From a virus: DNA of 64,000 nucleotides. Positions 2,598-27,760 of the stretch are shown here, in pieces. The stretch's first letter is position 1; each line of letters opens with the position of its first letter. The translations under genes were made by a program, and so were the position numbers. Below the pieces are notes generated by a model that saw nothing but the letters and a program-made list of their open reading frames with translations, did not search any database and had not been told where the DNA came from. Location: IMG/VR virus record IMGVR_UViG_3300032323_001800, positions 62,001 through 126,000 of that record. One strand, 5' to 3'.

Positions 2598-2598
2598 T

Positions 2599-3099: not shown

Positions 3100-4825
3100 A
3101 TTCCCAACTTGTTCCAATACTATTAACTCTAAACACTAAATTATTAATTCTAGTTGGGTTATTCACTGTTGTAGTTACAGATACCGCATTAACAAAACTT
3201 ACGCTAATCCATCCGCCATACCCTAAACTAACAGCACTAGAAACATTCTGAACTGTTCCGGCTATTCTTGCTTGTTGGCCTGGTTGATAATTTCCGGTAG
3301 GTGCTAGTGTATTCAACAATGAAGCTATATTTGTATTTGTAAGTCCTCTAACATCTAAAGAAAATACCAAAGGTTTTAATGTATAGAAATCTTGCACATA
3401 CTCATCAACATATTGTTTAGTTGCAGCGTGATTTGGTTCTACTGGATCTCCGGGAAGTGTTAGATATCCGGTCATAACGCTACCAGACTTGGCAACTTTA
3501 GTATTATCAAATACTGTTATGTTTTGAGTGCCGTCAAATTCTTCGCCATTTATAAAAACTTCAGATGCCAATCTTACTGCTGAATCGGCTCGACCTTGAA
3601 ATTCTACCCCTATAAAAGTTTTTGTAACATGGTTATAAGCTAGGTCATCGTTAATATCAAACAGATCGCCTGTATGGTCGCCTTCGGTATCACCGATTAA
3701 ATTACCTGCTACATTACCTGTTAAGTTTCCTGAAAAATTTCCAATGAATGTTTTAGTAGAAGAATTATACGATACACTTAAATCTTGTGCTTGAATATTT
3801 CCTCTATGAGTGCCTATCGAATTGCCAGTAAGACTACCAACAACATTGCCTTGAACATTACCTTCAACATCTGCTAGTATGTTTGTAGCATATATATTGT
3901 TCCATCGCTTACTGACGCTTCCGATGTTTAAATTACCGTTAGTTCCGGGTATAAATCCGTCCGGATTAAAAACGTAATCTAATACTTCAGTATTATCGAC
4001 TATTCTTAAAACAAAATCTGTTCCTGATAGGTTACTAAGAACAGGACTATTACCGTTTTCGACATATATTCTTAAATCGCTTCCGTCACCTACATAGAAT
4101 CCAGCATCATCAAAACCTGATCCATTATTGGTTCGCAATACAAAACTTTCTATACCGTAGCCGTCTAATTTTTTTGAATTACTCGATGATCCCCAATACC
4201 AATAATCCCCCGATGTTACTCCAGATGATCCTGTATTGATTAGCGTGAAGCCCTTTTTAATTGTTGTAAAACCAGTTATTCCCTCAATAATTCCAATATC
4301 AAATTGGTCATTAGATATCGTTGCAATTACATCACTGTCCATAAACACTTTAACAATAGCATGTTCAGTGTTTCCGTTGTCTCGAATAGTGTCCGAAACT
4401 AGTCTAGTAACTCCAAATCCTGGAGATTGTTCTGGCCCAACAGTGACAAATTCTATACCATTCCATACGCTGACTTGATTTTTATTCGAATCAAACCAAA
4501 GATTTCCTTGATCTTTAATAGTAAGACCAGTTGGCGGTGTAGCTTCAACTTCAGTAACCGTTAAACTTCTCCATGCGTTTGTAGAATCTCTATATTTTAT
4601 TTTATTGTTTGCTTCGTCAAACCATAGTTGCCCAATTACTGGTTTTCTAGGAGCTGTGGTATTTCTAAAATTTTCTAATAAATGTAGAAAGTTTTCGTTC
4701 TGAACTTCACCATACCCGGCATAGTTTTTACCAATTAGTTTTAAATCACTACTGGTTGTATCGACTGTTTGATCAGGGACCGTTGTAAATACAGTTCCGT
4801 TAAATCTATCAATTTGGTATGGCAT
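3086..4825 (-). CDS. Tail fibre paralogue 2
   Basis: This 579-residue protein has the same N-terminal head as its four neighbours (IGKNYAGYGEVQNENF, LLENFRNTTAPRKPVIGQ, LWFDEANNKIKY, a second NLWFDSNKNQ copy, VGPEQSPGFG). The centre has a GN-x-x-G tetrapeptide tract. This is followed by MTGYLTLPGDP and HAATKQYVD, a motif common in phage fibre proteins. The ~90 C-terminal residues, starting near KPLVFSLDVRG, match the layout of the C-terminus of paralogue 4 (APTGNYQPGQQARI against APTTEYDVGTETRI). Its 3' end overlaps the 2OG oxygenase gene. It is probably a tail or baseplate fibre; oligomeric state and receptor are unknown. Confidence 0.78.
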   Translation of the reverse strand: MPYQIDRFNGTVFTTVPDQTVDTTSSDLKLIGKNYAGYGEVQNENFLHLLENFRNTTAPRKPVIGQLWFDEANNKIKYRDSTNAWRSLTVTEVEATPPTGLTIKDQGNLWFDSNKNQVSVWNGIEFVTVGPEQSPGFGVTRLVSDTIRDNGNTEHAIVKVFMDSDVIATISNDQFDIGIIEGITGFTTIKKGFTLINTGSSGVTSGDYWYWGSSSNSKKLDGYGIESFVLRTNNGSGFDDAGFYVGDGSDLRIYVENGNSPVLSNLSGTDFVLRIVDNTEVLDYVFNPDGFIPGTNGNLNIGSVSKRWNNIYATNILADVEGNVQGNVVGSLTGNSIGTHRGNIQAQDLSVSYNSSTKTFIGNFSGNLTGNVAGNLIGDTEGDHTGDLFDINDDLAYNHVTKTFIGVEFQGRADSAVRLASEVFINGEEFDGTQNITVFDNTKVAKSGSVMTGYLTLPGDPVEPNHAATKQYVDEYVQDFYTLKPLVFSLDVRGLTNTNIASLLNTLAPTGNYQPGQQARIAGTVQNVSSAVSLGYGGWISVSFVNAVSVTTTVNNPTRINNLVFRVNSIGTSWEYVSG

Positions 4826-9183: not shown

Positions 9184-11391
9184 TTAAACAGTTTGTTCTT
9201 CAATTGGTTTTCCAGATCTAATAATGTAATTTAAAGTTATAAAAGGATTTAACACTTCAAACGGACGACCTGTTAATGATGTTGATGCGCCAGGAGCTCT
9301 TCTATTTTCATCAGCGATCCTAACAAGTCCTGAAGATGTCATTTTTCTACTTTGATTAATCAATGTACCATATGCTGTAGATGAGTTTGGCACCTGTGGA
9401 GGACCAATCGGTGTTTGTGGTGTAAAATCAACCACCGATGTTGCTCGATCATGCAGTACATAATATTGAATGTTAGACGGTTGATTGTCAGATCGTCTTC
9501 CTTGTAAATCATGATCGTGATCTGGAATATTAAATGGTTCAATGATATACTCAGATGCTCCGCCGCTGTCACCTAAAATGTTAGCTGCGCCGTCACTCTT
9601 AACTCTATATGTTGTAGCTGTTAGATCAATTGTAGCTGGGATTCCGCCCGGAAACGGCATGTCTAAATCGTTGTTCATGGTCTGCAGACCGAGAACAAAT
9701 CGTCCTCGTAAATCAGGTAATCTAAAAGATCCACCCGATGTAGTAACAGGTGTTAATGGAACCGATCCGTTATAAATTGAACCGATAACTTCAAAAAGTG
9801 CTCGATATCGATATACTTCAACTTCCGACCCGTCACATAATAAGTAACCGGGTGGTAAATTTCTCCAGGCATCTGAGCCCGATCCTTGACCAGCATAAGG
9901 TAAAATTGTTCCAATCGGAACTGATAAGTCATCAAAAAACACCGCTCTGGTTGTTTTTCTTAAACCTGTACTTGATCTATAGACTAGAATTTCATCTGAA
10001 TCTTTAGACGTTCCTATTGATGGTTTATTTGAAATAATATCAGCAGTAAGCTGAGTAGTAAAAACTTTGTTTAAATTACCAGTACCATTAAAAGAAACAA
10101 CGTTACTTTGTACGTCGCCCTCAAGTTTAAAGTTAGTAGCAGATCTTAGACTTGTTGCCGAATTGGCATTACCGCCAATGTCTCCATCTAAGTTTCCTTC
10201 GATAGTGTTTGCTACAATAGTGTCAGCATAAATTGTGTTGTATCTATTTGTTACTTTTCCAATTGTTTCTGATGCTGTTCTTGGTTCTAAAGATTTAGTT
10301 TTTAATGTACCATTTAATAATTCAAGATCACCGCCGACGATAATATTCTTAGAAACTGCTAGTCCGCCTAATGTTCTTACTGATCCATTTTCTAAGTTAG
10401 TTGCATCGTCTGTAGAATTACTTAAAATTGTACCAGTTAATTCTAGATTTCCTAAAATGTCTAATGCTTCAGTAGGAGACTGAGTATTAATTCCAACCTT
10501 GTCCTCAACTACACGAATAATTGTATTGGGCTGACCTGATCGACTTGTTTGGATATCAATAGCAGCACCTGCTGTTGAATTGTAAATTGTAGAATTAGCA
10601 TTTGAAACACTTAAACGGAAGTTACCGTCAGTACCAACAGTAAGCCCTGCGTTATCCTTAACGTTAAATTGCTTTTGAATTGTTCCGATTTCGTCAGTTC
10701 TTAAAAAACTTGTAGAAGGAATTGTATTTGTACCAACTACTAGTCCTTCAGCTGATGTAGCAATACCAACAAACTTTGGTGTAAAAGCTCCTGCGCCAAT
10801 GTCTGTTCTAGTTGTTAAGTTAATACCTGTTCTAATTAAAGAAAATCCCTGAATTGATATTTTTGGTACAAACTGATCTCTACTGATAATAGATACTGGG
10901 ATGTCATCAGTATAGAATATGATAACTGTTCTTTTTAAGTTATCGATGTCGAACAACGATTCAACTAGCGGGCCTGAACGTGTGCCTTCGCTGAATTGCG
11001 GGCCAACTAATATCCAGTTTGTGCCCGACCAAAGATATAACTGTTGAGTTGATGTATTGACCCACAAGTCGCCCACATCAGCATCTGTCGGTTCATTAAC
11101 CGCAGTCTTAATGTTACTGGTGGTTTTCCAACCAATACCATCAAAAACAAATAATCTGTTTTCATTAGAATTATACCACAGTTGCCCAATTACTGCTTTT
11201 GCTGTAGAAGGTGCAACATCACTGGCAAAATTTTCTAATAAATGTAAAAAGTTTTCAGCAATTAATTTACCATATCCTGTTTGATTTCTTCCAGGCAACG
11301 TTAAACTAGTTGCTGTATTTGGTGTGTTATCAACGACTTCTAACGGTTCTGGATTTAAATTGTCGTCTGTAAAGAATACGCTATATGTCAT
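9184..11391 (-). CDS. Tail fibre paralogue 5 with phage tail collar domain
   Basis: This 735-residue protein is the first fibre gene after the giant-protein region and the longest of the five paralogues. It has the shared head (LPGRNQTGYGKLIAENF, LLENFASDVAP, GQLWYNSNENRLFVFDG, GDLWVNTSTQQLYLWSG). Around residues 480-560 is a tail collar domain: VPIGTILPYAGQGS, PPGYLLCDGSEV, FRLPDLRGRFVLG. This domain occurs in T4 short tail fibre gp12 and many other fibres, where it lies near the receptor-binding tip. The C-terminus has an HDHDLQGR stretch and ends with VLNPFITLNYIIRSG, the usual end of collar proteins. It is the best candidate here for a gp12-like short fibre. Start: ATG at 11391 after GAGG. 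Confidence 0.85.
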   Translation of the reverse strand: MTYSVFFTDDNLNPEPLEVVDNTPNTATSLTLPGRNQTGYGKLIAENFLHLLENFASDVAPSTAKAVIGQLWYNSNENRLFVFDGIGWKTTSNIKTAVNEPTDADVGDLWVNTSTQQLYLWSGTNWILVGPQFSEGTRSGPLVESLFDIDNLKRTVIIFYTDDIPVSIISRDQFVPKISIQGFSLIRTGINLTTRTDIGAGAFTPKFVGIATSAEGLVVGTNTIPSTSFLRTDEIGTIQKQFNVKDNAGLTVGTDGNFRLSVSNANSTIYNSTAGAAIDIQTSRSGQPNTIIRVVEDKVGINTQSPTEALDILGNLELTGTILSNSTDDATNLENGSVRTLGGLAVSKNIIVGGDLELLNGTLKTKSLEPRTASETIGKVTNRYNTIYADTIVANTIEGNLDGDIGGNANSATSLRSATNFKLEGDVQSNVVSFNGTGNLNKVFTTQLTADIISNKPSIGTSKDSDEILVYRSSTGLRKTTRAVFFDDLSVPIGTILPYAGQGSGSDAWRNLPPGYLLCDGSEVEVYRYRALFEVIGSIYNGSVPLTPVTTSGGSFRLPDLRGRFVLGLQTMNNDLDMPFPGGIPATIDLTATTYRVKSDGAANILGDSGGASEYIIEPFNIPDHDHDLQGRRSDNQPSNIQYYVLHDRATSVVDFTPQTPIGPPQVPNSSTAYGTLINQSRKMTSSGLVRIADENRRAPGASTSLTGRPFEVLNPFITLNYIIRSGKPIEEQTV

Positions 11392-12063: not shown

Positions 12064-15000
12064 AGAGCAATTTTGTTGTTCGCTGTTGCAGGAATTTAGC
12101 AATAGGTGTAGTATTTTGGCTCAGCGTAACGCCTGTTGTAACTTCGTCGGCGCCTTGATTATACCAAACTTTTCCAGTTCGTTTAATAACTGTAATACGT
12201 GCTCCGGCTGGCGGAGTTTGGGTAATTCTTATAGCATTTGTTTGATTATCAACTGAAAATTCTGCTTCTAAAGTGACATCTCCCGCTGGACTGTAAGATC
12301 CTACTGTAGAATCATACACTGTAATTGGATCCTTTCTCAAGCGGCGACCTTGAACAAAAACTTCAATAGTATCGCAAGGATAAAAATTGTCCGGAATAGA
12401 ATTTGTATATGTAAATTCTACTAAGATTCCTTGCTGATTTTTTCTTGCTGCTGGAACAAACGGTAATCCTGTATAAATTTCAGAACTACCATCTGCTACA
12501 AAATCGTACCTATCTTGTGATTCTTTGTAAGGAACAATTTCTCGATATCCTACATCCACAACATAAGATTCTACAGGATGGGTAATTGCTATAGAAGTTC
12601 CTAATGTTCCTCTTCTTAGATCCTTTAACACATTTCCAACTTTGCGTAGATACTCAATTCTTTCACCGTTAATTGTTACAATTCCCGGCAATTTTAATTG
12701 AGGAGTACTTAATGTAGTAGCATCATTAACTTCCATTTCGTCATCGTAATAGTTAAGTTCTTTAGTTAGCTTAACATCCGTAACTGTATATCTATTATAG
12801 TGATGACTATTTAAAATATCTTTAAAAATTTCAAAAGCAAATGGTTGTTTATAAACCTCAGTAGCAAAAGAAATTATTTCTATTTCATCATCTTCTGTAT
12901 TACTATCTTTTAGATAAACAGTATTTCTTGGATAGTCAATATAGAAATCCACATCTGGAGTTAATCTGTCTCCGTTTTTATAAACCCAAACATAAGACAC
13001 TCCTAACGGAGCTCGTTGAAGTGGGTAATTTAATTGGCCACCAGTTCTAACATCTTTAACTAAATCTACTGACGAGTAACGATCAAACCAAATAATATCA
13101 ATTTTATCACCGGCTGTTAAAATTACATCATTAGATAACACAAGATTATTATCAATAATTTCATATTGCACTGCTTCGTATGTTTCTACTCGGATAACAT
13201 CACCGTGGTTTATATTTTGTTTAATAACATTAACACTGTTTGTAGCAGCTGAGAATTCATATTCAATACCAAATATTAGTGGAATATTGTTAATATAAGC
13301 TCTTACCTGAGCTTGAACAATTCCGCCAAATGTTTTTAATGGATCTCGTCCAACATTAACTATTCTATTTGTTCCGTCATATGTCTGTATAACGGTGTCA
13401 GCACATCTTAACAACTTATTGTTTAACTCAACAATAACGTTACCTGTAGCTGACGCTTGTAATTCAACAAAATCAGTCACAGCATATGTACGCTGAGAAG
13501 TATTAGTAACTGTTATAGTTTGATAGTTTGCTCTCACAATAGAATTGTCAGTTCCTGATTCGCCTGAAAGAACAATAATAGATACTTTAGATCCATTAGG
13601 TGGGGCAATACCAAACTCAACTAATGCTTTGTCGATATTATTAACAACACCGTTACTGTTAACAAATGCTACAGGAGTTGTTGAATAATCCACGGTAGCA
13701 AACACTCGACCGGCTTCTGCGTAAGATGCTGCTGTTAAGAAATATCGATTTGAACCGTCGCCTACAAATTCTCTATAATCTAAAATTTCAACACCGCCGA
13801 TACTTATTGAAAATATTTCAATTAATGAATTATTAATCGGTGCTGTTAAAAATCTTATTTGTTGTGTATCTGATACAAATGTATAATCAACATCAACTTC
13901 TTGTTTCACCTTATCAACAAACACAATAACAGAAGAATTTTCAAGAATAGTTTGTCCTATATTGTATAAAATAGTTGTGCCATCAGCGGTATAAATTCTT
14001 GACAATATCGCAGGTGCTCCTTGTCGATCTGAATGGAATACTTTTATGCTTACAGATTCTAGTACTTGCCCCGGAATGTTTTCTTCAGGAGCAGGAACTT
14101 GATCAGGACTTATAAACTTATCACCTTCGATAACTATCTCAGCTGCGGTTAACCCTGTTGCCGTTGAATAGGCTCCATTAATTGCGTTTGGTGCAACTAA
14201 GTTTCCTGTAGTATTGCTAGATAACAATCCACCGCTAACGTCGGCGTCGATTAGGTTAGCGTCTGTAATTGATAAAGAACCATCGCTAGTATCTGGACGG
14301 AATATCAGCACGTCGCCGTCTTGTATCGTTACCGCTGGAGGAATTACTATTGACCGCGTTGATCCATCACCAATAAATGTATCCATTACTGCTGTATCTA
14401 TCGGAGCATCACTCAATACTAGTATATTTTGCAATACTTGATCTAATGTTTGTTCCAACAAAACTACTGACTGAGTAGCGGTATTGTATTCTGTAGTTGC
14501 CGTTGCTAGTGCTGAATTAGCATTAGATAATGCTAAAATCAACGGTGCTTCAGCAGCCTCTAATGCGTCTAAAGTTACATTTAACGCATCAATTTCATCT
14601 TGCTTATCATTGATTTCTGTTTGTTTATCATCAATTGCAGAAACTATAGCATCAAGTTGATTCACCAATGTCTGATATGCTGGATTAGGAATAACATTCG
14701 ATGGTGGAACAAAAATTGTAGGCGGAGTTGAAGCAATTTGTATTTCTATCGACGATTTTTGATTATTTAAAACACTCAACTCGACCTGTAAATCTCCTCG
14801 ATCGTTTTCGGCCTGTGTAATGTCGCTTTCAATAGATGAAATTTCTAGTTGTTTGTTCAACAATAGTGTATTAGCAGAATTTCTATCAATCTGAGCTTGA
14901 TTTAACAAATTTAATTTTTGTTGTTTAATAAGATTTTGATTAATAATTTGAGATTCTAATGTAGTCTGTTGATCTTCTAAATTGTTTCTTCTCTCATTTA

Positions 15001-18000
15001 AATTTTGTCCCTGAAGAACTGTCACAAACTCAGTATAATTTGTATCGTCAATTCTTTCGTAAATTCCTGTAACAGAATTTCTTAGATAAATGTTGATTGC
15101 TTGCCCATCTAGTGGCACTTCGGGCAATACAAACATATTTGTAGTTCCGTCGGCAGTAATATAAAAATCTGAATTTAAAGAATCAACGCTATCCCAGCCT
15201 TCCGTAAACCAAGGCAGTGCATCCCAGCCGCCGCTGACGTCTAGTGTGGCACCTTGAACTACTACTCCACCAAAGTCTATTCCTGTTATTAGTTGAGAAT
15301 AGTCGTAATCAATCTTAATGATTTCTTGCGTAATATCATCTCTAATAACAGTTTTTTCTAATCCTATCATTCCATCTGTAGGATTATAATATTTGTCTAT
15401 CCTGTTGAGAGAATCTAATGATTGGTCATTTTTCTCATATTCAACAGTTACAAGAATGGTTTTTGCTGGTGCTGAATTAAGTGTTAGTTTTCCTACTTGG
15501 ATAGTTAATCCATTAACTTTAGTAGTATCAATAGATACACTGTACTGGCCGGTTAATAGCTTTTGTCCTGGTGAAGTAGTTGTATCAGTTATTAATTTTG
15601 TATAGACATTTACCTTTGTCTTGTCAAGTGCTGCAGGATATTTTAACTCAAATACAGTCTTACTTCCAGTGCCAGTAAAGGTTTGAATTTCTTTAAATTT
15701 CTCATCCAACGCCTTGGCTGTAAATGTAGATGATTTACTTACTCTATCAAATTTCATCGATACATCAAAAGTTCTTGCTTTTGTGTTTCCAATTACCGCA
15801 ATAGCAGTTGCAGCGTTTGATAAGTTAGTTCCAACCCCGCCTACTAATTTTACCGTTGGCGCAGAAATATATCCAGTTCCGCTGTTAGTTAATACTATTC
15901 GACTAACTTTTCCATTAGAGATAAATGCTCTAGCAGACGCACCTGTGCCACCGCCTCCTTCAAATACCACAATCGGAACAGTTTTATATCCGGATCCAAC
16001 GTTAGATATTTGAATGTCTATTACTGAGTATTTGTAATTGTCTAACCAGTATTTCCATGGATATGTATCAATTTCAGTAGAAATAATTTTAACAGGTTCA
16101 ATACTGTTAGTATCAGGATTATATACCGAAGGAACATCGAAGTCGCTGAAACTTGTCGATGTATTTTCAGTTCTAATATATCTACTTGTATATTCTCGTA
16201 TCTTAGTTCGGTACGGTTTGACTTCTTCTATATACTTTTGATAGCTAGGTAAATTGTCACTCTTGTAAGTGATCTTTTGTGTTAAATTTCCAACGTTATG
16301 GATGGCATTAACAAAACTTGTTTTAAACGCCCAATCTACATATAACTGTTCTGAAAATGCATAATGAATATTAGCAAAGAAAAGTTTATTCCATTCTACT
16401 CGCAGATCATCTAAGAAAATATCATTCTTAACAGATTCTAAAATAATTCTAAACTCTCTAGCCGAAGACTGATCGTATCCATTACTATCAAATGATGTAG
16501 TCTTATCATATCCTGTAGAATTACTTTCAGTGTTTATAAAACTGTCATTTATTTGTATTGTTCCGTTTGATCTACCAACAAGTCGATACTTATCGAGTAT
16601 AGTTGAATTTTCTATAGACGTTCTTTCTAGTACTGCCCAGTTGCCAGCACCATACTCTCGTATTCTTAGCAATTGACCAATTGTTAAATTAACTTCAGAT
16701 TCTTGATATAGTCCTACAATTTCATTAGTGATTCTAGATTTTTCTGAGAACCCTTCAGCCCACCAATCAATAGTAGTCCAGTAATTTCTTGTGTTGTATG
16801 ATTGAGTAGCAGTTCTATAAAACTCTTTTGCTTTTTCATTCCAGCTGTAGATGCTCCAATAATTTCTCACAGTTGAATCAGATTTAACTAAAACTGCAAA
16901 TTGTCTAACAGACAACGCTGCTGAAAGATATTTTGCTCCAGAATTTACAACAGTCACAGATATTACTCTACCCAATCGATCAATGTTGGCACGCAATATC
17001 GCGCCTGATCCTGATCCAGTAACTATAATTGGAGGAGATACCCTATATCCATATCCGGCTTCAATAACATCTACAGTATCAATTTTTCCATTAGCAATAT
17101 TTGCTTTTAAAATTGCGGGAGATATCTTTGACGTAGAAACTAATGCTAATTCTTCTTTAGTTTCTACCGTTCTATCATATAGATTTTTAACATCTGCCGG
17201 GGCAACTTCAAAAGAATTTAATCTAGTAGTATTAATAATTTCTGCAAACGGTCTTGTTTTTAAAATATTATTAATAAAATCTAAAGTTATTTGTGTTGCT
17301 TTGTTTCTATCAACAAACATACTCTGACGAGGTCTGCTTGATAAACCATACTTAAATTTTGTTGGCAGTTTAAAATCTGGAACATCTTTTCCTGTAATAT
17401 CGTAACCAATTAATGAATCAATCCATTTATTTTCTAGTTCAGGAGACGGCAGGCTGTCTGCTACTCCTTCGGTTAGAAGCTGATATTCTCTATGGACTTG
17501 ATTAATTTGTTTGCTGTTTTTATAGAACTGAATAGTAACAGATACATTATTTCCAGTAATTGCTATTGTCGGATTATATACTGCAATTTTTTCGTTGTCT
17601 ATTAATGCCGCAAAAGTTATTCCTGTACCTAAAGGATTTTGAATGTATTGAGCTACTGAACTTGCAGCAATCTTTCTAAAGTTTTTATTAGTTGGTAACG
17701 TTATTTTATCTTTAACCCAGTAATAATAAATTCGAGAACTTACTCTTCCAGTCAAAATATCTACATTTTCTTTAACAGAGTATGAACTATTATCAGGGTA
17801 TAGTGGTGTTCCCGATACTCCAACACTGAATGCGTCAGCTGTGACTGTTATATCAGCCCACTCACTAGGAAGATATTCAGTTTCAACCCATTCATACACA
17901 TCAATCGACGATCCGTATGCTAAAGAGTTCCATCCTCCTAACTTGTAAGAAATGTCACCCTGGTTATAATTTGCCCACTTAACTGTGCTTGTGTCCCACC

Positions 18001-21000
18001 ACAAATAACCTACCATGTTGTCAAACCAGGCTCTAGATGCGTCAGCAGAAGTACCAACTGAATAAACTGCAGGATCGTAGGATGTTTTAAATTTTAATTC
18101 TTGTTCAGCGACTGATAAAATTTTTCCGTTTAACGGATCTATTACATCAACGTCTAATAGTTTAATATTTGAATCGGAATCGAATAAAGATAACGATTTT
18201 AATAATGTTAAATCAACTACAGGCTCTTGGCTACGTAACGGTGACCAGGCATTGATATTTTTATATTTTCTAAATGTTTGAACCTTACCTATGACTGAAC
18301 CAAGAAATGCATCTTCCGAAGATGTAAATGCAGGAGATCCTATAATCACTCGATCGTCAAAACATGCTAAAGATTTTCCAAAATTTTCTCCAGTGATTAA
18401 ACCTTCATCAAAAGATTCAGATAATATAAACGTATCACCGTATCTATTATAGATATAAACTTTACCAGTAATTCCTACCGGGTCTCTAAATCTTGTTAGC
18501 AAGTAGTCAAAGTTAGTTTCGCCTCTATCAAAATTTATTAATGTAGATGCTACAGCCGAACCTGCAGTAATGGCTATTGTGTCAGCCGTTGGAGATACTG
18601 ATATTTCGTCTCCGAATCTTTCAAAGAAATCAAAAGAGTAACTTTCTAATCGTTGAATATATTCAAATCTATTATTAACATTTTTAAAGACGAACACAGC
18701 ACCTTTGTCTTTTTCTTTAATGTCGGCATCCGGAGCTGAAACAAATAATAAATTTCCTTCACGGCTTAATACAACCTTAAATCCAAGCTCGTCTCCGGAC
18801 TCTAGATCGTCAGTGATAATATCATTATCGTCGATCGTTTGAACTAGTTCATAAATGTTTTCTTGATTTTTTAGATAAACAAATACTGCTCCAGTATTAT
18901 ATTCAGATGCGTTCGATACCTTTTCCCATACTGTTCCACTAACTGGAAGTTGATTTAAACTTTCAATAGCTAGTAATTTATAATATGTTGGTTGTGCTGA
19001 CTCGACAATTTTTACAACATCGTTACGATTATATTCTTGATAAGACTTCCATGTACCTTTATAATTTTCTAAATCCGCAGTATCGGCAAACGGAGCTCCT
19101 ACTACTAACAACGACGCATCTGAGGACATTGTTGTAGAATATCCATATCGATCTCCTACATTTAATAACTCAGGAGTTTGATCTCCAACCAAACCAACTT
19201 CAATAGATGAACCATCATTCGGATAAGCAGGCTGTATTGGCAATATACCAGCATTGAGAGAATTAACTAATTCCCAACCAACTGTGTCTGTTGTAATCGT
19301 TGTACCGCTATTTTTAAAATACGGAACAGTTGATCTCCAATAGTTATTATTATACCATACTATCGATCCAGTTGCATAATCGTTGGCTGGGTTAAAAATC
19401 CCTACAAAGTTATTATCATCCGATTGTGTCCAATTAATACCGTCAAAACTGTATAGATAAATTCTTCCTTTGCTATCTAACGCACCAGGAGCAGAAATAG
19501 CCATATAATATGCTTCTGATGCTCCTCCTATGTTAGATCCTAAAATTCTAATTTGGTCTCCAACGTTATATCGTGTTCCTCGAACATTAACCGTAGCAGC
19601 ATATCTGCCGTTAGATCTAACCAGTTCAAAAATTGCTCCTGAACCGCTTTGACTAATGTCAGTACCAATAATATCCGAATATGACCCTAACCCTACTGAT
19701 GTTCCTACGAAACTAACTCCGGATTTAGCAACACCTGAGATAGTAAAGTTTCTGATACTGTTATCAATAAACTTCATTGGATTAGCAGATGGCGATGATG
19801 CTGATGTTAAAGTTACAATTTGTTTTGTTAAAGGGTCACTGTAAATTGTAAAAGATGTACTGTTAATAATCTCTTTTACAAAGTACTGGCTTCCTGAAGA
19901 AATCCCGCCGACCGCACTGCCTGTAAAGACAATAGGCATATCAACTCTTAATGTAGCTGTAGATCCTACAACAACCGTTGAGTTAGTTTCAAATGTTCCA
20001 ACAGTGGTTATTGGTAAGTTTGGGCTTACTCTAATTAAAAGATCGTTAGCCGGTGTGTCACCGCCCAGTGTTGTACCCGGAACCAAAATAGTAGATCCCG
20101 ATCTATATTTTGTCAAGTCTCCTAAATTGCCATCCGATGTTGATGTTACATAGGCTTTCCATGGAGTTGCTAAACTTAAAAATGTGCCTGCTGAAACTTC
20201 TTCCCAATATTCAAGATTAGTAGGGAGAATCGGTTCTGATACTTCCCAATAGTCAGTATCAGTTGGTAACACAAATTGTACTTCTTGTATTGATCCATCC
20301 AGTCCATTTTTAACTCTATAGTACGAAGACGATCTAAACGGATACTTAACCACATCTCCTGTATAGTAAGTGGCGTTCGAGTCCCACACACCTCGATCTG
20401 TCTGGGTATCTTTTATACAGCCATAATATCTTAAACCTAATCCTGGAGCAGAATATGAAACAATACTTCTTCCAGTGTATCCCACACCTCTGTTGATTAT
20501 TGCTACTGCGTATGTATTTCTAGTACGTGTTACATTAAACACAGCCTCATTAGTTGGAATAGTGGAGTTAATACCTGTAAGATTAGAATATGTTTCAGAT
20601 CCAATAATTGAACCGCCGGTGTCAATGGCTGTTACTGTAATTAACAAATCGTTTTCTGGAGACGACCCACCTACCTGTGTTCCTAATACATTTATTTGAT
20701 CACCTAACGCATATCTTGTACCGCCGTTTCTCACGGTTACTACATATGTGCCACCGGATTTTGTAATGTTAAACGAAGCGCCATTTCCTGAATCACTGAT
20801 GTCTGTACCACCAATGTTTTGGTATGTGGCATCTTTTAATCCGCTAGTTCCCACAGCATCAACAATAGTAATACCGCCGTTAGGGTCAATTGCTTTAACA
20901 ATTAACGTTACATCACCGCTGGTGCCTTCAATACCTTCTTGTTTTCCGATTGAAACACTGCTACCAAATAGTTCGTTAGCTTCCGGGCGAGGACTGATAA

Positions 21001-24000
21001 TTGTTTTTCTATATGTCCATTGACCTTGTGTAAATTCAAAAATATCAACACATCCCTGTTTAGGGTATCCTGGATTAGTACCTATTAAGTTCTTAGCTGC
21101 AGGTTGTGCTTCATGTAGATCAACTGGGCTCCAGTCATCGCTACTTAGGTTGATTGTGCTGCCGTCACCTAAAATAGGTTTGTTAGCTTTCCATAATTTT
21201 CCTGTGTAAATCACAGTGTCGTTGGTATTATATTCTGCCGAGGTACTATACTGCCCTTTAAATCCAGAAGGAATTCCAGAAGCAGTTGGTGACGCAACAA
21301 GTAACCATCTTCCGTCCGGACTTACCGATAACACAGTTCCGTATGATCCTAATAGCTCAGGTGCAATTTCAAATATAGGACTTAATACTTGACTAGGTAC
21401 TAGGCCGTCTAAACTCTGTGTATAAACAATTACAGCAGAATCTCTCGATGTATCGTTAGAAGCAACTCTAGCACCAGGATTAGACACAATAGTCTGATCC
21501 CTTGACGGAACGTAAGCAACCGCACTGCCCATGCTTGCTGGGAACGAAACACCATATTCTGATATTCCTGTTTTAGAATATTGTTTTGTACGCTGTAATA
21601 CTTCCCAATTTCCGGTAGCATTTTTATCTAACCATACTTTAGAACCTAATGGAAGAATTGAAAAATCTTCCTTTATTAATTCGTCAGTGCTGGATATTCT
21701 CGCTGGCAGGAAAACACCAACATTACAGAAAGAACTTTGATCTATTTCTGGTGGTTCTTCAAATCCCAATACCTCTATAACGATTGTTGTAGTGTTTGAC
21801 GCTTTAATTTTATAAAAACCTGTCAACCCTTTAATATTTGTTAAACCAATAATAGTTCCGGTTGTTAAACGATGTGGTCTGTTAGTTGTTATAACTGCAT
21901 TTCGTTGATCAATGGCCGCAACCGCAATTACTGTTACATTGGTTATTTTATATCGTAAAATATCCCAACCACCCGTTTCATACGTTATCCAAATTACAGA
22001 ACCATCATTAAACTGTGTTACATCGTTTCCGATTAATTCATCAAAATTCTTAATTACAAAATCTACGTCATCGACATTAACATACCCTGCTCCGGAATTA
22101 GGAACAGAAATATTTTTAGTTTGAATAATTTGATTTTTACTATCACCAATTTGATAATTTTGGTCTGATAATACTATGTAATTTTTATATTCATTTTGAT
22201 CAATTGAACGATCATTTAAAATAATAGGTTGAGGATTTAGTTTAAATTGGTCTTTGCCTATTTTAAATTCAATTTCATTAAATTGATCTGTTCCACCAAT
22301 TTGTCCTAATCTAAATGCCCATTCTTCATTTATTTCAATAGCATCGCTATCAACAGAACTTATTTTATCAAATATTTTTTTGATAGAATTGTTAGTTCCT
22401 TTTTCTCTAATAAATCCTTGATATAATCTGTATTGTGTTACATCGTCTTCGGCAAGATCTCGTAGATAATCTCTAGATTGATATCCAATAGAATGTCTAG
22501 CTAATTCTCGCTGACTAGATCCCAACCCTTCCGAATCTAAATCATAAAAGTCTTCAAACTGACTTATCCTATAATCAAAATTTGCTACTAAACCAGTTTC
22601 AGGACGACTATCTAATTTTTCCCAGTTGCTAGGATTAAATTCAGCCTCTCCCGATTGTGCTACTTTGCTTACGTAATTAAATTCTTTATAGGTAGCAATA
22701 TCTCCTAATTTGTAATCAACAAACGGTGACCACGGTTGGATATTGACATCGTCGAATAAAAATCCAGGGCTAGTATAATCGCCATCCCAATCAGTTGTTC
22801 TAAAACCTAAAACTTTGATTCTCTGCTGTCTATATCCTGGACCCTTGTCAAACATGACATCATTGAACATAGTTCTATCAGAAAATACAACTACGTGTTC
22901 TTTTAACACATAGTTAATTCTAGCAAAATATATGCCGTCTCTGATATTAACTGGAGCTATAGCAAATTCGTTGTATCGTCTTATAACATCAATGTTTGCC
23001 GGTAATAATTTAGTTCCGTCGCTCTTTAAAATTGTATATTCATAAAATGAATCTAAAAGGTTATCTGCAACTCCGCCGGTAGATATTAATTTTAATTTAA
23101 TGGCTGCAGGGCTTACTGATAAGATTGCTCCCGGTGCCCAGTTATGACTGGTCCAGAACATAAATTCTTTTGATGTAGTTTCCCAGTTAGCAACTGATTG
23201 AAGTTCGCTGCTGAACTCGTCGAATACAAATCCAAGATCTTTTAATCGTTCTCCGTATCCTAATAAGAAATCAACAACATCTTGAACTGTTTCTAACGCT
23301 GTTCCGTATGATAATCTCTTTAAATCTGTCTTGTCAAAATATGTTCTTTTGGTTGCTTCAATAGCACCAACAAGAGGAATTTGAGTTATTCTAACCCATT
23401 TAGTTGCATCAAACTGGTCTTCCGATGTGTGGGCTGTTACAGATCTAAAAAATTGCTCGTTGTATCTTACAATTATACCTTTGGTATAGAATTGATTGTT
23501 TTGCCACGCAACGTATGTTTCGCTAACACCGCCTACAAATATTTTAGGATCTGCGTTGGTTGGTAACGAAGGATAATATTCAAAATATGTGTTTAGTCGA
23601 TCATATCCTCTAATAATCCATGCTCTAGCCGACTTTTCAAGTATAACTCCGGAATATGTAAGACTCTGTACAGATGATCCGATGTTAAAAAATATGTCAT
23701 AATTTTCTGGAGGTATAAAAACACTGCTTGTAGATGCCTGTGGATTTTTAGAATCTAAAATATATTTCTGTTGTGACTTATCAACAAATCCGCCAATTCT
23801 ATTAGACATGTTAATATCAAAATTTTCTAATTTTTCAATTAATGATGTTTTGTCTTTTAGATCAACTTTTAAATAATTGTCAATATAGTAAAACAATCCA
23901 GACGGAGTAATATCGCCATTAAGGATTTCCAGTAAGTCAGAAATTTTAACAAAATAATTACTGTTAGAACTTACAAGCTGACCTAATTTATTTTTCTTAA

Positions 24001-27000
24001 CTTTAGTTTTATCTAAACTTGCAGGAATAAATTCAAAAGGTCTTAATAAGCACAAAGCAAAAATAACACTGAACGGATAAGCAGAACTTTTTCTCCAAGC
24101 ATACTCTGCCGGAGCGACATCACCAAATTTAAAATCTAGTTGATTATTAAATGTAGAATAATTGTCAAGAACATTTAATAGTAACGGATTTTTTAATTCA
24201 CCGTCTTCATCTGTAGGAATAATATCTAGTAAATTAGATCTCTTATATCTGTCATGCTGGCCGGCTCGTGGGCCTTGACGAATTATACCGTCCTTTAAGT
24301 CTTCCCATAAAATTAAGTTTCCGCTGGTATATGGAGCAGGACCGTATTCATCTTCCCACCATAGTGGTTTTTGTGTAAAGCCCAACATTTCCCAAGGTGA
24401 AATATGTGGTCTGTCAGTATCATATAAAGATAAAAACATACCTCGCCAAAAGCTAGGCAATTCTTCTCGAGTAGTTTTATCGACTACTTGAGAATATGTA
24501 TAAGTGAATGGGTTTGACACTTGATAAAAATTATTACCAAATAGATCAATGTCAGTAGTGGATGCCCATCTTAAAAATTCTTGATTTATTACTGTATTAA
24601 AATTAGACTGTGTAAAGATTCCAGTTTTATAAAATGACGATAATGTTTTATCAATATCAAATGTTTCTTCGTCATATTCAATTTTTATGTTATTATAAAT
24701 TCGTTTTTCTAATTCTAATAATAAATCGTCTCTAAAGTCGTTGAATGCAATTGTTATACTGCCGTCGTGGCCTCTTATTACCTTTTTAGGTTCTAGGTAT
24801 GTAGTATCAACATAGATTTCTGGTTCGTATTTTTTATACATTCCCATCTTGGTAGGTGTGGGAGGTACAAAGTTAAATGCTGTTGAAAAATATTCTTTAA
24901 TTTGAATATTATCGTTTTCATTTAATGGTTTTAAAATTTTAACAAAACCAAACGTAGCATCAAACTCGTAGTCTTTACCGTTAATGCCTTGTTGATTGTT
25001 TATATACACATAGGTTGCTTTCGATGATATTACCGATAGATCAAATTTGTCACCTAAGGAAAACACATTGATACCAGTGTCTTCAACAGTATAATCAATA
25101 GTCGTAAACGCACCAGAACCTACCATGTCAGAATCAACAAATGGTGATTTAATTGTTTTTGCCTGAGAAATAGTTGTTAAAATATCATCAACAAATTTAA
25201 CAGGATCTCCGTTATCATATGGCAATTCTATAGCTAATGTTAAAAAATTATTTTTAAACTTTTCGTATTCAGCTGAAGCAAATCTAATCGAATTTATTAT
25301 ATTTGTTTCTTTATTGCACAACAAATTAATCGACAAAGTTGGAATACCGGAATGTTTTAAAAATCTTCTTCCGTACTGTTCATAATCAATTAAATCTCTT
25401 AAATTGCCGCTACCGGGATATGTTCCTTCAAATCCATCGACTAGCTCAACCATTGATCCTAAATGATCGTTAAGCTGTCCTAAAGTAAATGACTGTAGAT
25501 CTTGATTTAACGGATTTCTTTCAAGACCAAACGGGATTTCATAATAACCATCAACTGGTTCAGCGTCTGAATAAACTTTAAAGGTCACAGTGTCACCTGA
25601 TATCAGTTTATTACTAACAGTTATTTTCTTTTTATTGTTTTCAATAACAGTACTAATAGGAGTTACTAAATTTCCATTAACATAGCAAATTGTTTTATCT
25701 CTAGTAGATGAATTCCAATCACATGCTGTTGAAATTACAACATTGGTATCTTCTAATACTGTAATCGTTTGAATAATTGCCTGCAAATATTTGCTGTCAA
25801 TCAGTGTCCATCCGTTTTCGTATGTGTATTCAGTTAATGATCTATTATTTCTATAATACCCTTTATTCACTAATTCTGTGATAATTTGAAAATTTTCTTG
25901 GTATGAGAAGTTATCACGGTCCCAGTCAAATTCAAACTGGATGTCTCCTGAATTGTTAATATTCAGATAGCTTAATGGAAACTCGAGTTCGGTATCATTA
26001 TTTCCCGTACCAATCACATAACTAATAATTTCTGATCCAGTAAATGACGAAGTGTTGTACTTTGTTAAATCTCCTACAGATACCCCGTCAATGTCAAATA
26101 CATCAAATAGTGGCGGTTGATTTACCTTTGTTTTTTCTTGGCTTCTAATCCATGATTCACCGTTAAAGTGAAACATCTTATTTCTATTTTCTACACCACG
26201 TTTAACAACCAGCCCTTCACCGGGATTAGAAACAGTGTCTGTAGTCTCTATCAAACTAATTTGTCGTCTATTAACAATATTAGTACTAGCTTGTACTGTA
26301 ATAAATTTAACTTCAAATATTTTATTTTTTACTAAAGGATCAGTGTCTGCTGTAAAAAGAATTCGATATCCGTCTGTTAAAGGCTCTCCGTCAATGTTAT
26401 AACCAGATGACCCTTCGATGACTGAAAATATATCAGTAGTAAAGTCGTCAATTAAATCAACACTGGTTTTAGCAACAACGCCATGATTAAACAGTTGAAG
26501 GTCGGCATTAAATTCAATAATTGGTCTTTTTGCTCTTAGATTTTCATCTATTTTTGCATCAGTGTTATTGAGCTCTCCGGTATATTCTAATACAGATCTA
26601 TGGAACCATCTATTATATCTGCTCCATGGATTTTTATCTAAACTAGATCGATTAATTGTGATATAGTCTTTGCTTCTTGGATACGATAGTGATTCATCAA
26701 ACGGTTGGTCATCGAATCCGCCATCGTCAAACAACACTTCTGGATTAGGATTCGAAATAGGTGGAAGTTCAATGGTTTCCCAATTAATTAATCGTATAGC
26801 ATCTCCAACACCCTCGATTACCCAAGATCCTTGTTTATAAATTGAAGGTGATGTTTGTCCTTCAAATTTAACTCTTAGACCATTGGTAAATTTAACTCCG
26901 TTCGAACTAATATATTTTTGCTTGCCTATAACATCTTTCTCAATATCTAAGAAAGTGTTTTCTTTAATTTCAGCGATCCTAAATGTTCCAACTCTATCTC

Positions 27001-27760
27001 GAGTGGTCGAACTTTGATAATATAATAATTCAGGAGCATCGTTAGGTACTTCAAATATAACTTTTCCTACTTGAGTTCCGCTGTTAGTCACTCCCTTGGT
27101 ATAATTTGATTGCTCACCTAATACATTTGAGGTTCTGATAAAAAACGGGTCGCCTGGCGAATTTACGTCAAATTCGTAAGTTTGGCCGCGGTATAAAGTA
27201 ATTGACGGATTTTTCTTAAGTCCGTCTGGATAAAAAATCCACTCTGATGTTCCGCTGGTTCTCACACGGTACGATGATATTGTTTCTCTTGCTTGTCCTT
27301 GAACAGCAACCGAATCAACTCCAACTGGTTGCCAATAATATTCTCTGTAATTAACAAATTTGTCCCAGTCAATAGGAGGAGCCCAAGCATATGAATCATT
27401 GCCTGTAATTTGATCATCTCTTTCTAGACTGTTGCCAAAGAATTTTAATTGATTTTTAAAATCAATATAATCGTTGAATTCAGAGATTCTATTGTTTTTT
27501 CTAACAACTACAGCAGGTTCTAATTGATAAGCATCACGTAATGTATCGGCTCTATCTATATAGACATCAGTCGAGTTAAAAGTTTTTCCGTACTTTCTTC
27601 CAATGTATCCAGATAACTTTTCTAAAGTACCTGGTTGTACAAGAGCGTCTAACGTAGCACCTAAGAATTTTTCATTGGCGTTAGTCTGAAAAATATCAGG
27701 TAACAGTTCAATAGTTCTTCTAATAGGCAATCCGCTAGATTTAAAAACTTTATTTTCCAT
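12062..27760 (-). CDS. Giant 5232-residue tail/baseplate protein
   Basis: One uninterrupted frame follows gp6, where T4 has gp7 (about 1030 residues). The N-terminus (SSGLPIRRTIELLPDIFQTN, LGATLDALVQPGTLEKL, YIGRKYGKTF, WDKFVNYREYYWQPVG) resembles a large virion protein I recall from T4-like cyanophages. Visible parts: about six CBM5/12-like modules between residues 1415 and 2953 (pattern Y-x-x-GD-x-V-x-Y...Y...W); FG-GAP-like blades between about 2070 and 3160 (SVSPDGRWLLVASP, MSSDASLLVVGAPFAD, LSREGNLLFVSAPDAD); G-x-GY beta repeats; a long helical hairpin near 4250-4450; and C-terminal GDGSxR-type fibre repeats. It probably encircles or decorates the baseplate and may bind surface glycans. 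No enzymatic motif is recognised. Start: ATG at 27760, two bases after gp6. Confidence 0.85.
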   Translation of the reverse strand: MENKVFKSSGLPIRRTIELLPDIFQTNANEKFLGATLDALVQPGTLEKLSGYIGRKYGKTFNSTDVYIDRADTLRDAYQLEPAVVVRKNNRISEFNDYIDFKNQLKFFGNSLERDDQITGNDSYAWAPPIDWDKFVNYREYYWQPVGVDSVAVQGQARETISSYRVRTSGTSEWIFYPDGLKKNPSITLYRGQTYEFDVNSPGDPFFIRTSNVLGEQSNYTKGVTNSGTQVGKVIFEVPNDAPELLYYQSSTTRDRVGTFRIAEIKENTFLDIEKDVIGKQKYISSNGVKFTNGLRVKFEGQTSPSIYKQGSWVIEGVGDAIRLINWETIELPPISNPNPEVLFDDGGFDDQPFDESLSYPRSKDYITINRSSLDKNPWSRYNRWFHRSVLEYTGELNNTDAKIDENLRAKRPIIEFNADLQLFNHGVVAKTSVDLIDDFTTDIFSVIEGSSGYNIDGEPLTDGYRILFTADTDPLVKNKIFEVKFITVQASTNIVNRRQISLIETTDTVSNPGEGLVVKRGVENRNKMFHFNGESWIRSQEKTKVNQPPLFDVFDIDGVSVGDLTKYNTSSFTGSEIISYVIGTGNNDTELEFPLSYLNINNSGDIQFEFDWDRDNFSYQENFQIITELVNKGYYRNNRSLTEYTYENGWTLIDSKYLQAIIQTITVLEDTNVVISTACDWNSSTRDKTICYVNGNLVTPISTVIENNKKKITVSNKLISGDTVTFKVYSDAEPVDGYYEIPFGLERNPLNQDLQSFTLGQLNDHLGSMVELVDGFEGTYPGSGNLRDLIDYEQYGRRFLKHSGIPTLSINLLCNKETNIINSIRFASAEYEKFKNNFLTLAIELPYDNGDPVKFVDDILTTISQAKTIKSPFVDSDMVGSGAFTTIDYTVEDTGINVFSLGDKFDLSVISSKATYVYINNQQGINGKDYEFDATFGFVKILKPLNENDNIQIKEYFSTAFNFVPPTPTKMGMYKKYEPEIYVDTTYLEPKKVIRGHDGSITIAFNDFRDDLLLELEKRIYNNIKIEYDEETFDIDKTLSSFYKTGIFTQSNFNTVINQEFLRWASTTDIDLFGNNFYQVSNPFTYTYSQVVDKTTREELPSFWRGMFLSLYDTDRPHISPWEMLGFTQKPLWWEDEYGPAPYTSGNLILWEDLKDGIIRQGPRAGQHDRYKRSNLLDIIPTDEDGELKNPLLLNVLDNYSTFNNQLDFKFGDVAPAEYAWRKSSAYPFSVIFALCLLRPFEFIPASLDKTKVKKNKLGQLVSSNSNYFVKISDLLEILNGDITPSGLFYYIDNYLKVDLKDKTSLIEKLENFDINMSNRIGGFVDKSQQKYILDSKNPQASTSSVFIPPENYDIFFNIGSSVQSLTYSGVILEKSARAWIIRGYDRLNTYFEYYPSLPTNADPKIFVGGVSETYVAWQNNQFYTKGIIVRYNEQFFRSVTAHTSEDQFDATKWVRITQIPLVGAIEATKRTYFDKTDLKRLSYGTALETVQDVVDFLLGYGERLKDLGFVFDEFSSELQSVANWETTSKEFMFWTSHNWAPGAILSVSPAAIKLKLISTGGVADNLLDSFYEYTILKSDGTKLLPANIDVIRRYNEFAIAPVNIRDGIYFARINYVLKEHVVVFSDRTMFNDVMFDKGPGYRQQRIKVLGFRTTDWDGDYTSPGFLFDDVNIQPWSPFVDYKLGDIATYKEFNYVSKVAQSGEAEFNPSNWEKLDSRPETGLVANFDYRISQFEDFYDLDSEGLGSSQRELARHSIGYQSRDYLRDLAEDDVTQYRLYQGFIREKGTNNSIKKIFDKISSVDSDAIEINEEWAFRLGQIGGTDQFNEIEFKIGKDQFKLNPQPIILNDRSIDQNEYKNYIVLSDQNYQIGDSKNQIIQTKNISVPNSGAGYVNVDDVDFVIKNFDELIGNDVTQFNDGSVIWITYETGGWDILRYKITNVTVIAVAAIDQRNAVITTNRPHRLTTGTIIGLTNIKGLTGFYKIKASNTTTIVIEVLGFEEPPEIDQSSFCNVGVFLPARISSTDELIKEDFSILPLGSKVWLDKNATGNWEVLQRTKQYSKTGISEYGVSFPASMGSAVAYVPSRDQTIVSNPGARVASNDTSRDSAVIVYTQSLDGLVPSQVLSPIFEIAPELLGSYGTVLSVSPDGRWLLVASPTASGIPSGFKGQYSTSAEYNTNDTVIYTGKLWKANKPILGDGSTINLSSDDWSPVDLHEAQPAAKNLIGTNPGYPKQGCVDIFEFTQGQWTYRKTIISPRPEANELFGSSVSIGKQEGIEGTSGDVTLIVKAIDPNGGITIVDAVGTSGLKDATYQNIGGTDISDSGNGASFNITKSGGTYVVTVRNGGTRYALGDQINVLGTQVGGSSPENDLLITVTAIDTGGSIIGSETYSNLTGINSTIPTNEAVFNVTRTRNTYAVAIINRGVGYTGRSIVSYSAPGLGLRYYGCIKDTQTDRGVWDSNATYYTGDVVKYPFRSSSYYRVKNGLDGSIQEVQFVLPTDTDYWEVSEPILPTNLEYWEEVSAGTFLSLATPWKAYVTSTSDGNLGDLTKYRSGSTILVPGTTLGGDTPANDLLIRVSPNLPITTVGTFETNSTVVVGSTATLRVDMPIVFTGSAVGGISSGSQYFVKEIINSTSFTIYSDPLTKQIVTLTSASSPSANPMKFIDNSIRNFTISGVAKSGVSFVGTSVGLGSYSDIIGTDISQSGSGAIFELVRSNGRYAATVNVRGTRYNVGDQIRILGSNIGGASEAYYMAISAPGALDSKGRIYLYSFDGINWTQSDDNNFVGIFNPANDYATGSIVWYNNNYWRSTVPYFKNSGTTITTDTVGWELVNSLNAGILPIQPAYPNDGSSIEVGLVGDQTPELLNVGDRYGYSTTMSSDASLLVVGAPFADTADLENYKGTWKSYQEYNRNDVVKIVESAQPTYYKLLAIESLNQLPVSGTVWEKVSNASEYNTGAVFVYLKNQENIYELVQTIDDNDIITDDLESGDELGFKVVLSREGNLLFVSAPDADIKEKDKGAVFVFKNVNNRFEYIQRLESYSFDFFERFGDEISVSPTADTIAITAGSAVASTLINFDRGETNFDYLLTRFRDPVGITGKVYIYNRYGDTFILSESFDEGLITGENFGKSLACFDDRVIIGSPAFTSSEDAFLGSVIGKVQTFRKYKNINAWSPLRSQEPVVDLTLLKSLSLFDSDSNIKLLDVDVIDPLNGKILSVAEQELKFKTSYDPAVYSVGTSADASRAWFDNMVGYLWWDTSTVKWANYNQGDISYKLGGWNSLAYGSSIDVYEWVETEYLPSEWADITVTADAFSVGVSGTPLYPDNSSYSVKENVDILTGRVSSRIYYYWVKDKITLPTNKNFRKIAASSVAQYIQNPLGTGITFAALIDNEKIAVYNPTIAITGNNVSVTIQFYKNSKQINQVHREYQLLTEGVADSLPSPELENKWIDSLIGYDITGKDVPDFKLPTKFKYGLSSRPRQSMFVDRNKATQITLDFINNILKTRPFAEIINTTRLNSFEVAPADVKNLYDRTVETKEELALVSTSKISPAILKANIANGKIDTVDVIEAGYGYRVSPPIIVTGSGSGAILRANIDRLGRVISVTVVNSGAKYLSAALSVRQFAVLVKSDSTVRNYWSIYSWNEKAKEFYRTATQSYNTRNYWTTIDWWAEGFSEKSRITNEIVGLYQESEVNLTIGQLLRIREYGAGNWAVLERTSIENSTILDKYRLVGRSNGTIQINDSFINTESNSTGYDKTTSFDSNGYDQSSAREFRIILESVKNDIFLDDLRVEWNKLFFANIHYAFSEQLYVDWAFKTSFVNAIHNVGNLTQKITYKSDNLPSYQKYIEEVKPYRTKIREYTSRYIRTENTSTSFSDFDVPSVYNPDTNSIEPVKIISTEIDTYPWKYWLDNYKYSVIDIQISNVGSGYKTVPIVVFEGGGGTGASARAFISNGKVSRIVLTNSGTGYISAPTVKLVGGVGTNLSNAATAIAVIGNTKARTFDVSMKFDRVSKSSTFTAKALDEKFKEIQTFTGTGSKTVFELKYPAALDKTKVNVYTKLITDTTTSPGQKLLTGQYSVSIDTTKVNGLTIQVGKLTLNSAPAKTILVTVEYEKNDQSLDSLNRIDKYYNPTDGMIGLEKTVIRDDITQEIIKIDYDYSQLITGIDFGGVVVQGATLDVSGGWDALPWFTEGWDSVDSLNSDFYITADGTTNMFVLPEVPLDGQAINIYLRNSVTGIYERIDDTNYTEFVTVLQGQNLNERRNNLEDQQTTLESQIINQNLIKQQKLNLLNQAQIDRNSANTLLLNKQLEISSIESDITQAENDRGDLQVELSVLNNQKSSIEIQIASTPPTIFVPPSNVIPNPAYQTLVNQLDAIVSAIDDKQTEINDKQDEIDALNVTLDALEAAEAPLILALSNANSALATATTEYNTATQSVVLLEQTLDQVLQNILVLSDAPIDTAVMDTFIGDGSTRSIVIPPAVTIQDGDVLIFRPDTSDGSLSITDANLIDADVSGGLLSSNTTGNLVAPNAINGAYSTATGLTAAEIVIEGDKFISPDQVPAPEENIPGQVLESVSIKVFHSDRQGAPAILSRIYTADGTTILYNIGQTILENSSVIVFVDKVKQEVDVDYTFVSDTQQIRFLTAPINNSLIEIFSISIGGVEILDYREFVGDGSNRYFLTAASYAEAGRVFATVDYSTTPVAFVNSNGVVNNIDKALVEFGIAPPNGSKVSIIVLSGESGTDNSIVRANYQTITVTNTSQRTYAVTDFVELQASATGNVIVELNNKLLRCADTVIQTYDGTNRIVNVGRDPLKTFGGIVQAQVRAYINNIPLIFGIEYEFSAATNSVNVIKQNINHGDVIRVETYEAVQYEIIDNNLVLSNDVILTAGDKIDIIWFDRYSSVDLVKDVRTGGQLNYPLQRAPLGVSYVWVYKNGDRLTPDVDFYIDYPRNTVYLKDSNTEDDEIEIISFATEVYKQPFAFEIFKDILNSHHYNRYTVTDVKLTKELNYYDDEMEVNDATTLSTPQLKLPGIVTINGERIEYLRKVGNVLKDLRRGTLGTSIAITHPVESYVVDVGYREIVPYKESQDRYDFVADGSSEIYTGLPFVPAARKNQQGILVEFTYTNSIPDNFYPCDTIEVFVQGRRLRKDPITVYDSTVGSYSPAGDVTLEAEFSVDNQTNAIRITQTPPAGARITVIKRTGKVWYNQGADEVTTGVTLSQNTTPIAKFLQQRTTKLL

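Follow-up and report, generated by a model that had tools for sequence, protein, structure and literature searches.

Can a giant phage tail protein carry an integrin-like propeller and, if so, what would such a domain do there? The question arises from a 64,000-nucleotide stretch of viral DNA (the window; bases 62001-126000 of the 187,929-base IMG/VR virus record IMGVR_UViG_3300032323_001800), which encodes a giant protein of 5232 residues as a single uninterrupted open reading frame (ORF). An original prediction, made from the sequence, had placed FG-GAP blades within this protein at 18290-21545, close to the span of 18257-21586 mapped here. A seven-bladed fold of the integrin type (FG-GAP_2), familiar elsewhere mainly from animal integrins, is well supported by our analysis; it has no integrin calcium loops and is inserted in the giant protein. 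Related viruses provide a natural series at this one site, which is found empty, filled by a bare propeller, filled by a propeller with three loop domains, or extended by a further cassette of 377-476 residues. As the series is graded and confined to one site, it allows the gradual growth of a phage baseplate protein to be traced and put to the test. The results also show that a group of large, uncultured phages (contigs of up to 363,943 bases) has a conserved FG-GAP propeller, and they offer a concrete host-contact candidate where annotation had nothing.

Seven FG-GAP blades

The Pfam FG-GAP_2 family (PF14312) matches residues 2072-3157 of the giant protein (E = 7e-11). A blade hidden Markov model (HMM), built solely from six undecorated relatives that are 21-28% identical to the window, was used to scan all 5232 residues. 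It identifies seven blades, in order, between residues 2078 and 3151 (Table 1), and nothing above 0 bits in the remainder of the protein. In 200 shuffled copies of the giant protein, 29 domains scored above 0 bits and two above 5 bits, with a maximum of 7.7 bits. Blades 3-6 exceed this maximum individually. Blades 1, 2, and 7 are not above chance alone, and their assignment therefore rests on order, relatives, and the structure model. Given ordered HMM matches, of which only those to blades 3-6 surpass the shuffle maximum, the FG-GAP repeat is genuine and comprises seven blades, with degenerate ends. The sequence had suggested seven or eight segments; the ordered matches and the structure model bear out the lower figure but not the higher one.

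A strict FG-GAP regular expression matches neither the window nor its relatives, the pattern being too narrow. The calcium motif D-x-[DN]-x-[DN]-G was not found in the window protein. Among 62 related loci with a filled site (described below), 12 carry this motif somewhere in the region; inspection by eye places it in the 1-2 loop of a blade in only L053 and L055. With no calcium loops, the domain is an FG-GAP propeller of integrin-like fold, and not integrin-type in the strict sense.

Structural similarity to integrins

All 14 matches obtained by searching the PDB with a profile of 12 relatives are integrin alpha subunits (best E = 5.6e-16). The AlphaFold2 (AF2) model of residues 2010-3180 has a mean predicted local distance difference test (pLDDT) score of 68.4 and a predicted TM-score of 0.59, with 601 of 1171 residues at a pLDDT of at least 70. 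The blades mostly score 75-95, and a cassette of ~475 residues in blade 3 is poorly modelled. The top VIA-align match of this model is integrin alpha-L (Z = 37.9, root-mean-square deviation (RMSD) 3.0 Å, 361 residues), with model residues 50-1160 of 1171 aligned to residues 1-591 of the integrin chain, and integrins account for 50 of 50 among the VIA-align matches listed. Integrins also lead the Foldseek ranking (E = 9.5e-9), in which DDB1-type propellers are listed as well. The prediction thus yields a whole-length integrin match rather than unrelated β-sheets and, together with the Pfam and family-profile matches, upholds the proposed integrin-type FG-GAP propeller. The end-to-end match to integrins also supports closure of the predicted ring. 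Viral models matched include those of giant viruses of eukaryotes, FG-GAP proteins of uncultured Caudovirales, S-TIM5, and Atu_ph07; a large YHYH-labelled protein of an uncultured Caudovirales phage matches the AF2 model with 23% identity over 235 columns.

The integrin alpha propeller has been described as seven repeats with an FG-GAP/Cage signature, in which strands 1 and 2 of several blades are joined by a calcium loop of the DxDxDG-like type; these loops lie at the other end of the propeller from the FG-GAP motif (PMC3192720). The window domain resembles the N-terminal propeller of integrin alpha in its seven FG-GAP blades and, as a predicted model, in matching the whole domain. The integrin alpha-I domain is a domain inserted in a propeller loop, and loop-inserted domains are likewise present in the window propeller. 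Unlike integrin alpha, the window propeller lacks DxDxDG calcium loops, carries different inserts at other loops, and is part of a viral tail protein.

Domains inserted in the propeller

The propeller is decorated by four long inserts (Table 1). The original prediction described extra modules between blades; the decoration of loops is confirmed, but only one insert lies between blades (3 and 4), the other three being within them. The inserts are at best similar to carbohydrate-binding modules (CBM) of the CBM5/12 type. Besides the match given in Table 1, the family profile matches the chitin-binding module 2rts (E = 5.5e-4). Taken alone, the window copies of the blade 3/4 and blade 4 inserts have no Pfam match. 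Modules of the blade 3 cassette resemble cyanophage tail proteins and gp7-labelled proteins, and one stretch is CBM-like by eye; a blastp self-comparison of the cassette found no internal repeat, though two stretches look alike by eye.

In integrins, the ligand face is made up of the 2-3 and 4-1 loops, which also carry the I domain. In the window propeller, this ligand-type (FG-GAP) face would bear three of the four inserts, and the long cassette would leave from the opposite face. Sequence identity in four pairs is 30-49% for the blade 4 insert, 40-54% for the blade 3/4 insert, and 53-72% for the N-terminal part of the giant protein. Low conservation of the inserts would be expected of exposed, host-facing parts, and equally of any loop.

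Table 1. Positions of the propeller, its blades and inserts, and the adjoining baseplate genes in the window
Feature	Position	Strand	Residues of giant protein	Evidence and remarks
Whole propeller region (seven FG-GAP blades plus inserts)	18257..21586	(-)	~2059-3168	
Blade 1, degenerate FG-GAP	21362..21565	(-)	~2066-2133	HMM 2078-2126, 1.5 bits, below chance maximum; AF2
Blade 2 including insert	20990..21361	(-)	~2134-2257	HMM 2139-2182, 3.8 bits, below chance maximum; AF2
Insert of ~66 residues, blade 2, strands 2-3, CBM5/12-like	21065..21262	(-)		Pfam CBM_5_12 E 2.5e-4, 21.4 bits, cut-off 26.2
Blade 3 including insert	19406..20989	(-)	~2258-2785	HMM 2741-2784 (second half), 10.6 bits
Cassette of ~475 residues (476), blade 3, strands 1-2	19517..20941	(-)		Alignment insert; low pLDDT
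Insert of ~79 residues between blades 3 and 4, CBM-like	19169..19405	(-)		Family profile matches All3316 (7b5h_AE) E 1e-5
Blade 4 including insert	18806..19168	(-)	~2865-2985	HMM 2868-2927 and 2953-2981, 31.9 and 7.6 bits
Insert of ~55 residues, blade 4, strands 2-3, CBM-like by eye	18905..19069	(-)		Among the least conserved segments
Blade 5	18635..18805	(-)	2986-3042	HMM 2988-3037, 34.5 bits; best Pfam FG-GAP_2 stretch
Blade 6, with TTFDxxxT-type loop common to relatives	18401..18634	(-)	3043-3120	HMM 3047-3113, 17.1 bits; alignment
Blade 7	18257..18400	(-)	3121-3168	HMM 3123-3151, 7.5 bits, at chance maximum of 7.7; AF2
Giant protein, very likely of the virion, 5232 residues	12062..27760	(-)		PHROG 10938 family, virion structural protein
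gp6-like baseplate wedge protein, 1169 residues	27763..31272	(-)		phrog_219 E 8.6e-20; phrog_10646 E 3.1e-286
gp25-like baseplate wedge protein, 145 residues	31320..31757	(-)		Pfam GPW_gp25 E 2.3e-7, 30.9 bits, cut-off 27.2

Filled, bare, and empty sites

Scanning IMG/VR with giant-protein residues ~421-1587 yielded 78 loci. Both flanks of the propeller site are present in 68 loci, a number that includes L001 from a separate search; L001 and L010 come from one contig, and several of the loci are almost identical to each other. The site is filled in 62 of the 68 (458-1259 residues, with FG-GAP blade matches) and empty in six (20-140 residues; L071-L073 and L075-L077). With this HMM, blade starts above 0 bits number exactly seven in 23 of the filled loci, eight in four, and four to six in 35. 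The bare forms (L048, L053, L054, L061, L062, and L081) display seven units each, but the HMM was derived from these same six.

Among 31 aligned members, FG-GAP_2 is matched in 30 and CBM_5_12 in 24 (E<=0.01). With insert positions defined relative to L081, 24 of the 31 rows have the inserts at blade 2, between blades 3 and 4, and at blade 4; L050 has a partial set and the six bare rows none. The window and eight near relatives additionally carry the blade 3 cassette (377-476 residues), which is absent from 15 further rows. A separate branch (L063, 14705-17314; L078, 14777-17329) has, by eye, a seven-unit propeller with other inserts, including fibre-type-like stretches.

The range of lengths at the site (20-1259 residues), the existence of bare propellers, and the resemblance of the cassette to modules spread across many cyanophage virion proteins would all suit a propeller that is mainly bulk, a stable fold acquired by a giant modular protein, with no specific partner, and retained because it is harmless or stiffens the wedge. 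We consider this unlikely, given that divergent relatives conserve both the blades and the places of the inserts, which a pure spacer would not require.

Blade signal above 3 bits was found in none of six named relatives (PA5oct, Atu_ph07, SCTP-2, Vibrio phage 2.275.O, PBECO4, and Phosso). In a midpoint-rooted FastTree phylogeny of a single region of the giant protein outside the propeller, these six phages group together, and the empty-site loci, three tips once near-identical ones are removed, nest among propeller bearers. Loss is therefore the simpler reading for the empty sites; the tree points to a single gain and one or more losses of the propeller, a point that we do not press. The AF2 model of the flanks of one empty-site relative, L077 (mean pLDDT 62.9), is poor at ~402-470, where query residues are misaligned across the propeller of the others. 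Its structural matches extend over no more than a CBM-like module plus a small barrel (Z<=8.1) and have no bearing on the insertion point; T4 gp7 is not among the matches listed, which speaks neither for nor against a relation.

Propellers in other phages

The window propeller has no match in the phage collection at E 1e-5. At E 10, 68 phage records are matched, and among the matches listed nearly all are to the cassette; Phosso has a single weak match, to the end of the propeller. Relatives with fewer inserts or none have weak matches: bare L081 matches nine records at E<=1 and L022 one at E<=0.01; L053 and L063 match none at E<=0.01. In Sinorhizobium phage Phosso (L089, 7589-18667), a hypothetical protein of 3693 residues matches bare L081; the record contains 14 such places, and the protein may hold several propellers.

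FG-GAP_2 repeats like those of the window occur in a 407-residue virion protein of cyanophage S-TIM5 (E = 1.3e-79) and in UFOVP1367_22 (E = 3.8e-26), and a hemagglutinin-labelled protein of Atu_ph07 is also FG-GAP_2-type by similarity. These proteins stand alone at about 390-470 residues, whereas the window propeller is inserted in a giant protein. The PHROG 10938 giants of the six named phages share homologous flanks with the window protein and a position beside wedge genes but, unlike it, show no FG-GAP blade signal (6/6).

Propellers of other kinds are known from phage virions. The periphery of the phiKZ baseplate carries gp131C, a propeller of seven blades that has been speculated to act as a receptor-binding domain or as an enzyme that degrades the cell (PMC4901313). 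The receptor-binding protein of phi11 contains five-bladed propellers, and CBB has Kelch proteins (PMC4901313, PMC5259590). The likeness to the window lies in a propeller in the phage tail or virion for which host binding is proposed. Each is a separate protein, however, whether Kelch, five-bladed, or of some other type, and an FG-GAP propeller set into a gp7-position protein is not among them. In the open literature, judged by titles and the starts of abstracts and with subscription papers mostly outside this scope, no FG-GAP propeller in a phage baseplate protein was found. What is new is the insertion of a loop-decorated FG-GAP propeller into a giant protein that occupies the gp7 position, together with the series from empty to decorated sites.

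As some propellers are catalytic, and a cell-degrading role has been speculated for gp131C, the window propeller might be an enzyme, or an enzyme scaffold, acting on host glycans. This seems highly improbable: integrins, the relatives of solved structure that were found, are not enzymes, and Pfam searches of the window and the 31 aligned members matched no catalytic family.

Putative position of the giant protein in the baseplate

The gp25-like and gp6-like genes lie upstream of the giant gene on the same strand. The order gp25, gp6, giant protein is common to the window, PBECO4, and CBB, and in PA5oct, Atu_ph07, and Phosso a giant protein comes directly after a wedge-labelled gene. The giant gene of the window directly follows its gp6-like gene, the gene position of T4 gp7. 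The first 2071 residues of the giant protein match the virion structural protein family PHROG 10938 (E = 3.8e-254), and 85 phage records match them (tblastn, E 1e-5), with identity below 60% in all. PDB searches with the N-terminal part alone and with the gp6-like protein gave no match. Matches to the N-terminal profile were limited to chitin-binding-type and related modules, and the window N-terminal part passes the Pfam CBM5/12 (PF02839) cut-off (34.3 bits vs 26.2).

The CBB homologue of the giant protein, CBB_236, was reported in CBB particles (21 peptides, 7.72% coverage; PMC5259590). A second homologue, PA5oct gp355, is annotated in its record as detected by electrospray ionization tandem mass spectrometry (ESI-MS/MS). 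These two homologues make it very likely that the giant protein is part of the virion.

Two further features of the giant protein lie outside the propeller. A module common to gp9-type fibre connectors of cyanophages is located in the N-terminal part (26972-27298 (-), residues ~155-263; phrog_677, E = 4e-16). A coiled-coil-like stretch of ~215 residues (14396-15040, residues ~4241-4455), with a weak SbcC-like PHROG match, has almost no counterpart in the relatives L009, L037, and L012 (11, 3, and 19 of 215 residues aligned).

Proposed role of the propeller

The most likely reading, to which we assign a probability of about one half, is that the propeller is a glycan-binding display platform on the baseplate that aids adsorption. 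Display of weak glycan-binding modules is preferred because three of four inserts would be on the ligand-type face and two of the inserts are less conserved than the N-terminal part. The giant protein would be a baseplate wedge component in the gp7/gpI position, present in several copies around the tail tip, from which the propeller would project as a rigid platform. The small CBM5/12-like loop domains at the FG-GAP end, the face that integrins use for ligands and the I domain, would touch host-surface glycans, and these contacts, weak and multivalent, would help adsorption. The ~475-residue cassette of blade 3 may act, from the opposite face, as an extra arm or fibre-like contact. It is interesting to speculate that this lineage of large phages has evolved its own counterpart of the integrin head, with exchangeable glycan-binding domains added to the ligand-side loops, much as integrins acquired the alpha-I domain, by which the host surface is sensed before tail contraction, although we regard this wider view as doubtful.

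Several observations weigh against a glycan-binding platform on the baseplate. The Foldseek superposition is poor for the integrin rows (TM-score about 0.14, RMSD 9-21 Å), presumably because of the inserts. The sole window insert recognised by Pfam falls under the curated cut-off (21.4 vs 26.2 bits), and a CBM family name would be no proof of sugar binding. The divergence of the inserts is mild, and some blade segments are similarly low (blade 4 strands 3-4, 33% in L037). PA5oct is without blades, so that detection of homologues in virions does not show the propeller in the particle. Finally, no sequence similarity of the N-terminal part to T4 gp7 was found by profile: hhalign with a 15-row N-terminal profile gave a probability of 0.1% for T4 gp7, a weak comparison having a single gp7 sequence on one side, and 0.8% for P-HM2 gp7, likewise a single sequence. 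The wedge role consequently rests on gene order. The initial description of a T4-like baseplate protein draws its support from gene order, from PHROG labels, and from homologues detected in virions by mass spectrometry, not from sequence similarity to T4 gp7.

The leading alternative, less probable than glycan display, is a role inside the virion: the propeller may be a docking hub for tail fibres or neighbouring baseplate proteins, with the inserts as assembly contacts and not as domains that bind the host. An array of fibre-like genes with a common N-terminal domain lies just downstream and needs an anchor, and the CBM-like modules also match structural parts, namely All3316, baseplate chains of phage Milano, and tail fibres of phage 7-7-1. 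Against such a hub, the domain is dispensable, as indicated by the empty site in 6 of 68 loci and the lack of blade signal above 3 bits in all six named relatives.

Neighbouring genes

Five fibre-like genes on the (-) strand (305-2092, 3086-4825, 5200-7164, 7194-9173, and 9184-11391) have a common N-terminal domain (phrog_15511, phrog_14394) and differing C-terminal parts; the last of these, 9184-11391, has a tail collar domain. Two adjacent large genes on the (+) strand, 57620-61549 and 61687-63999, match the same baseplate wedge PHROGs (phrog_13163 and others) and look paralogous. An 895-residue protein encoded at 44740-47427 (+) has endolysin and chitinase PHROG matches.

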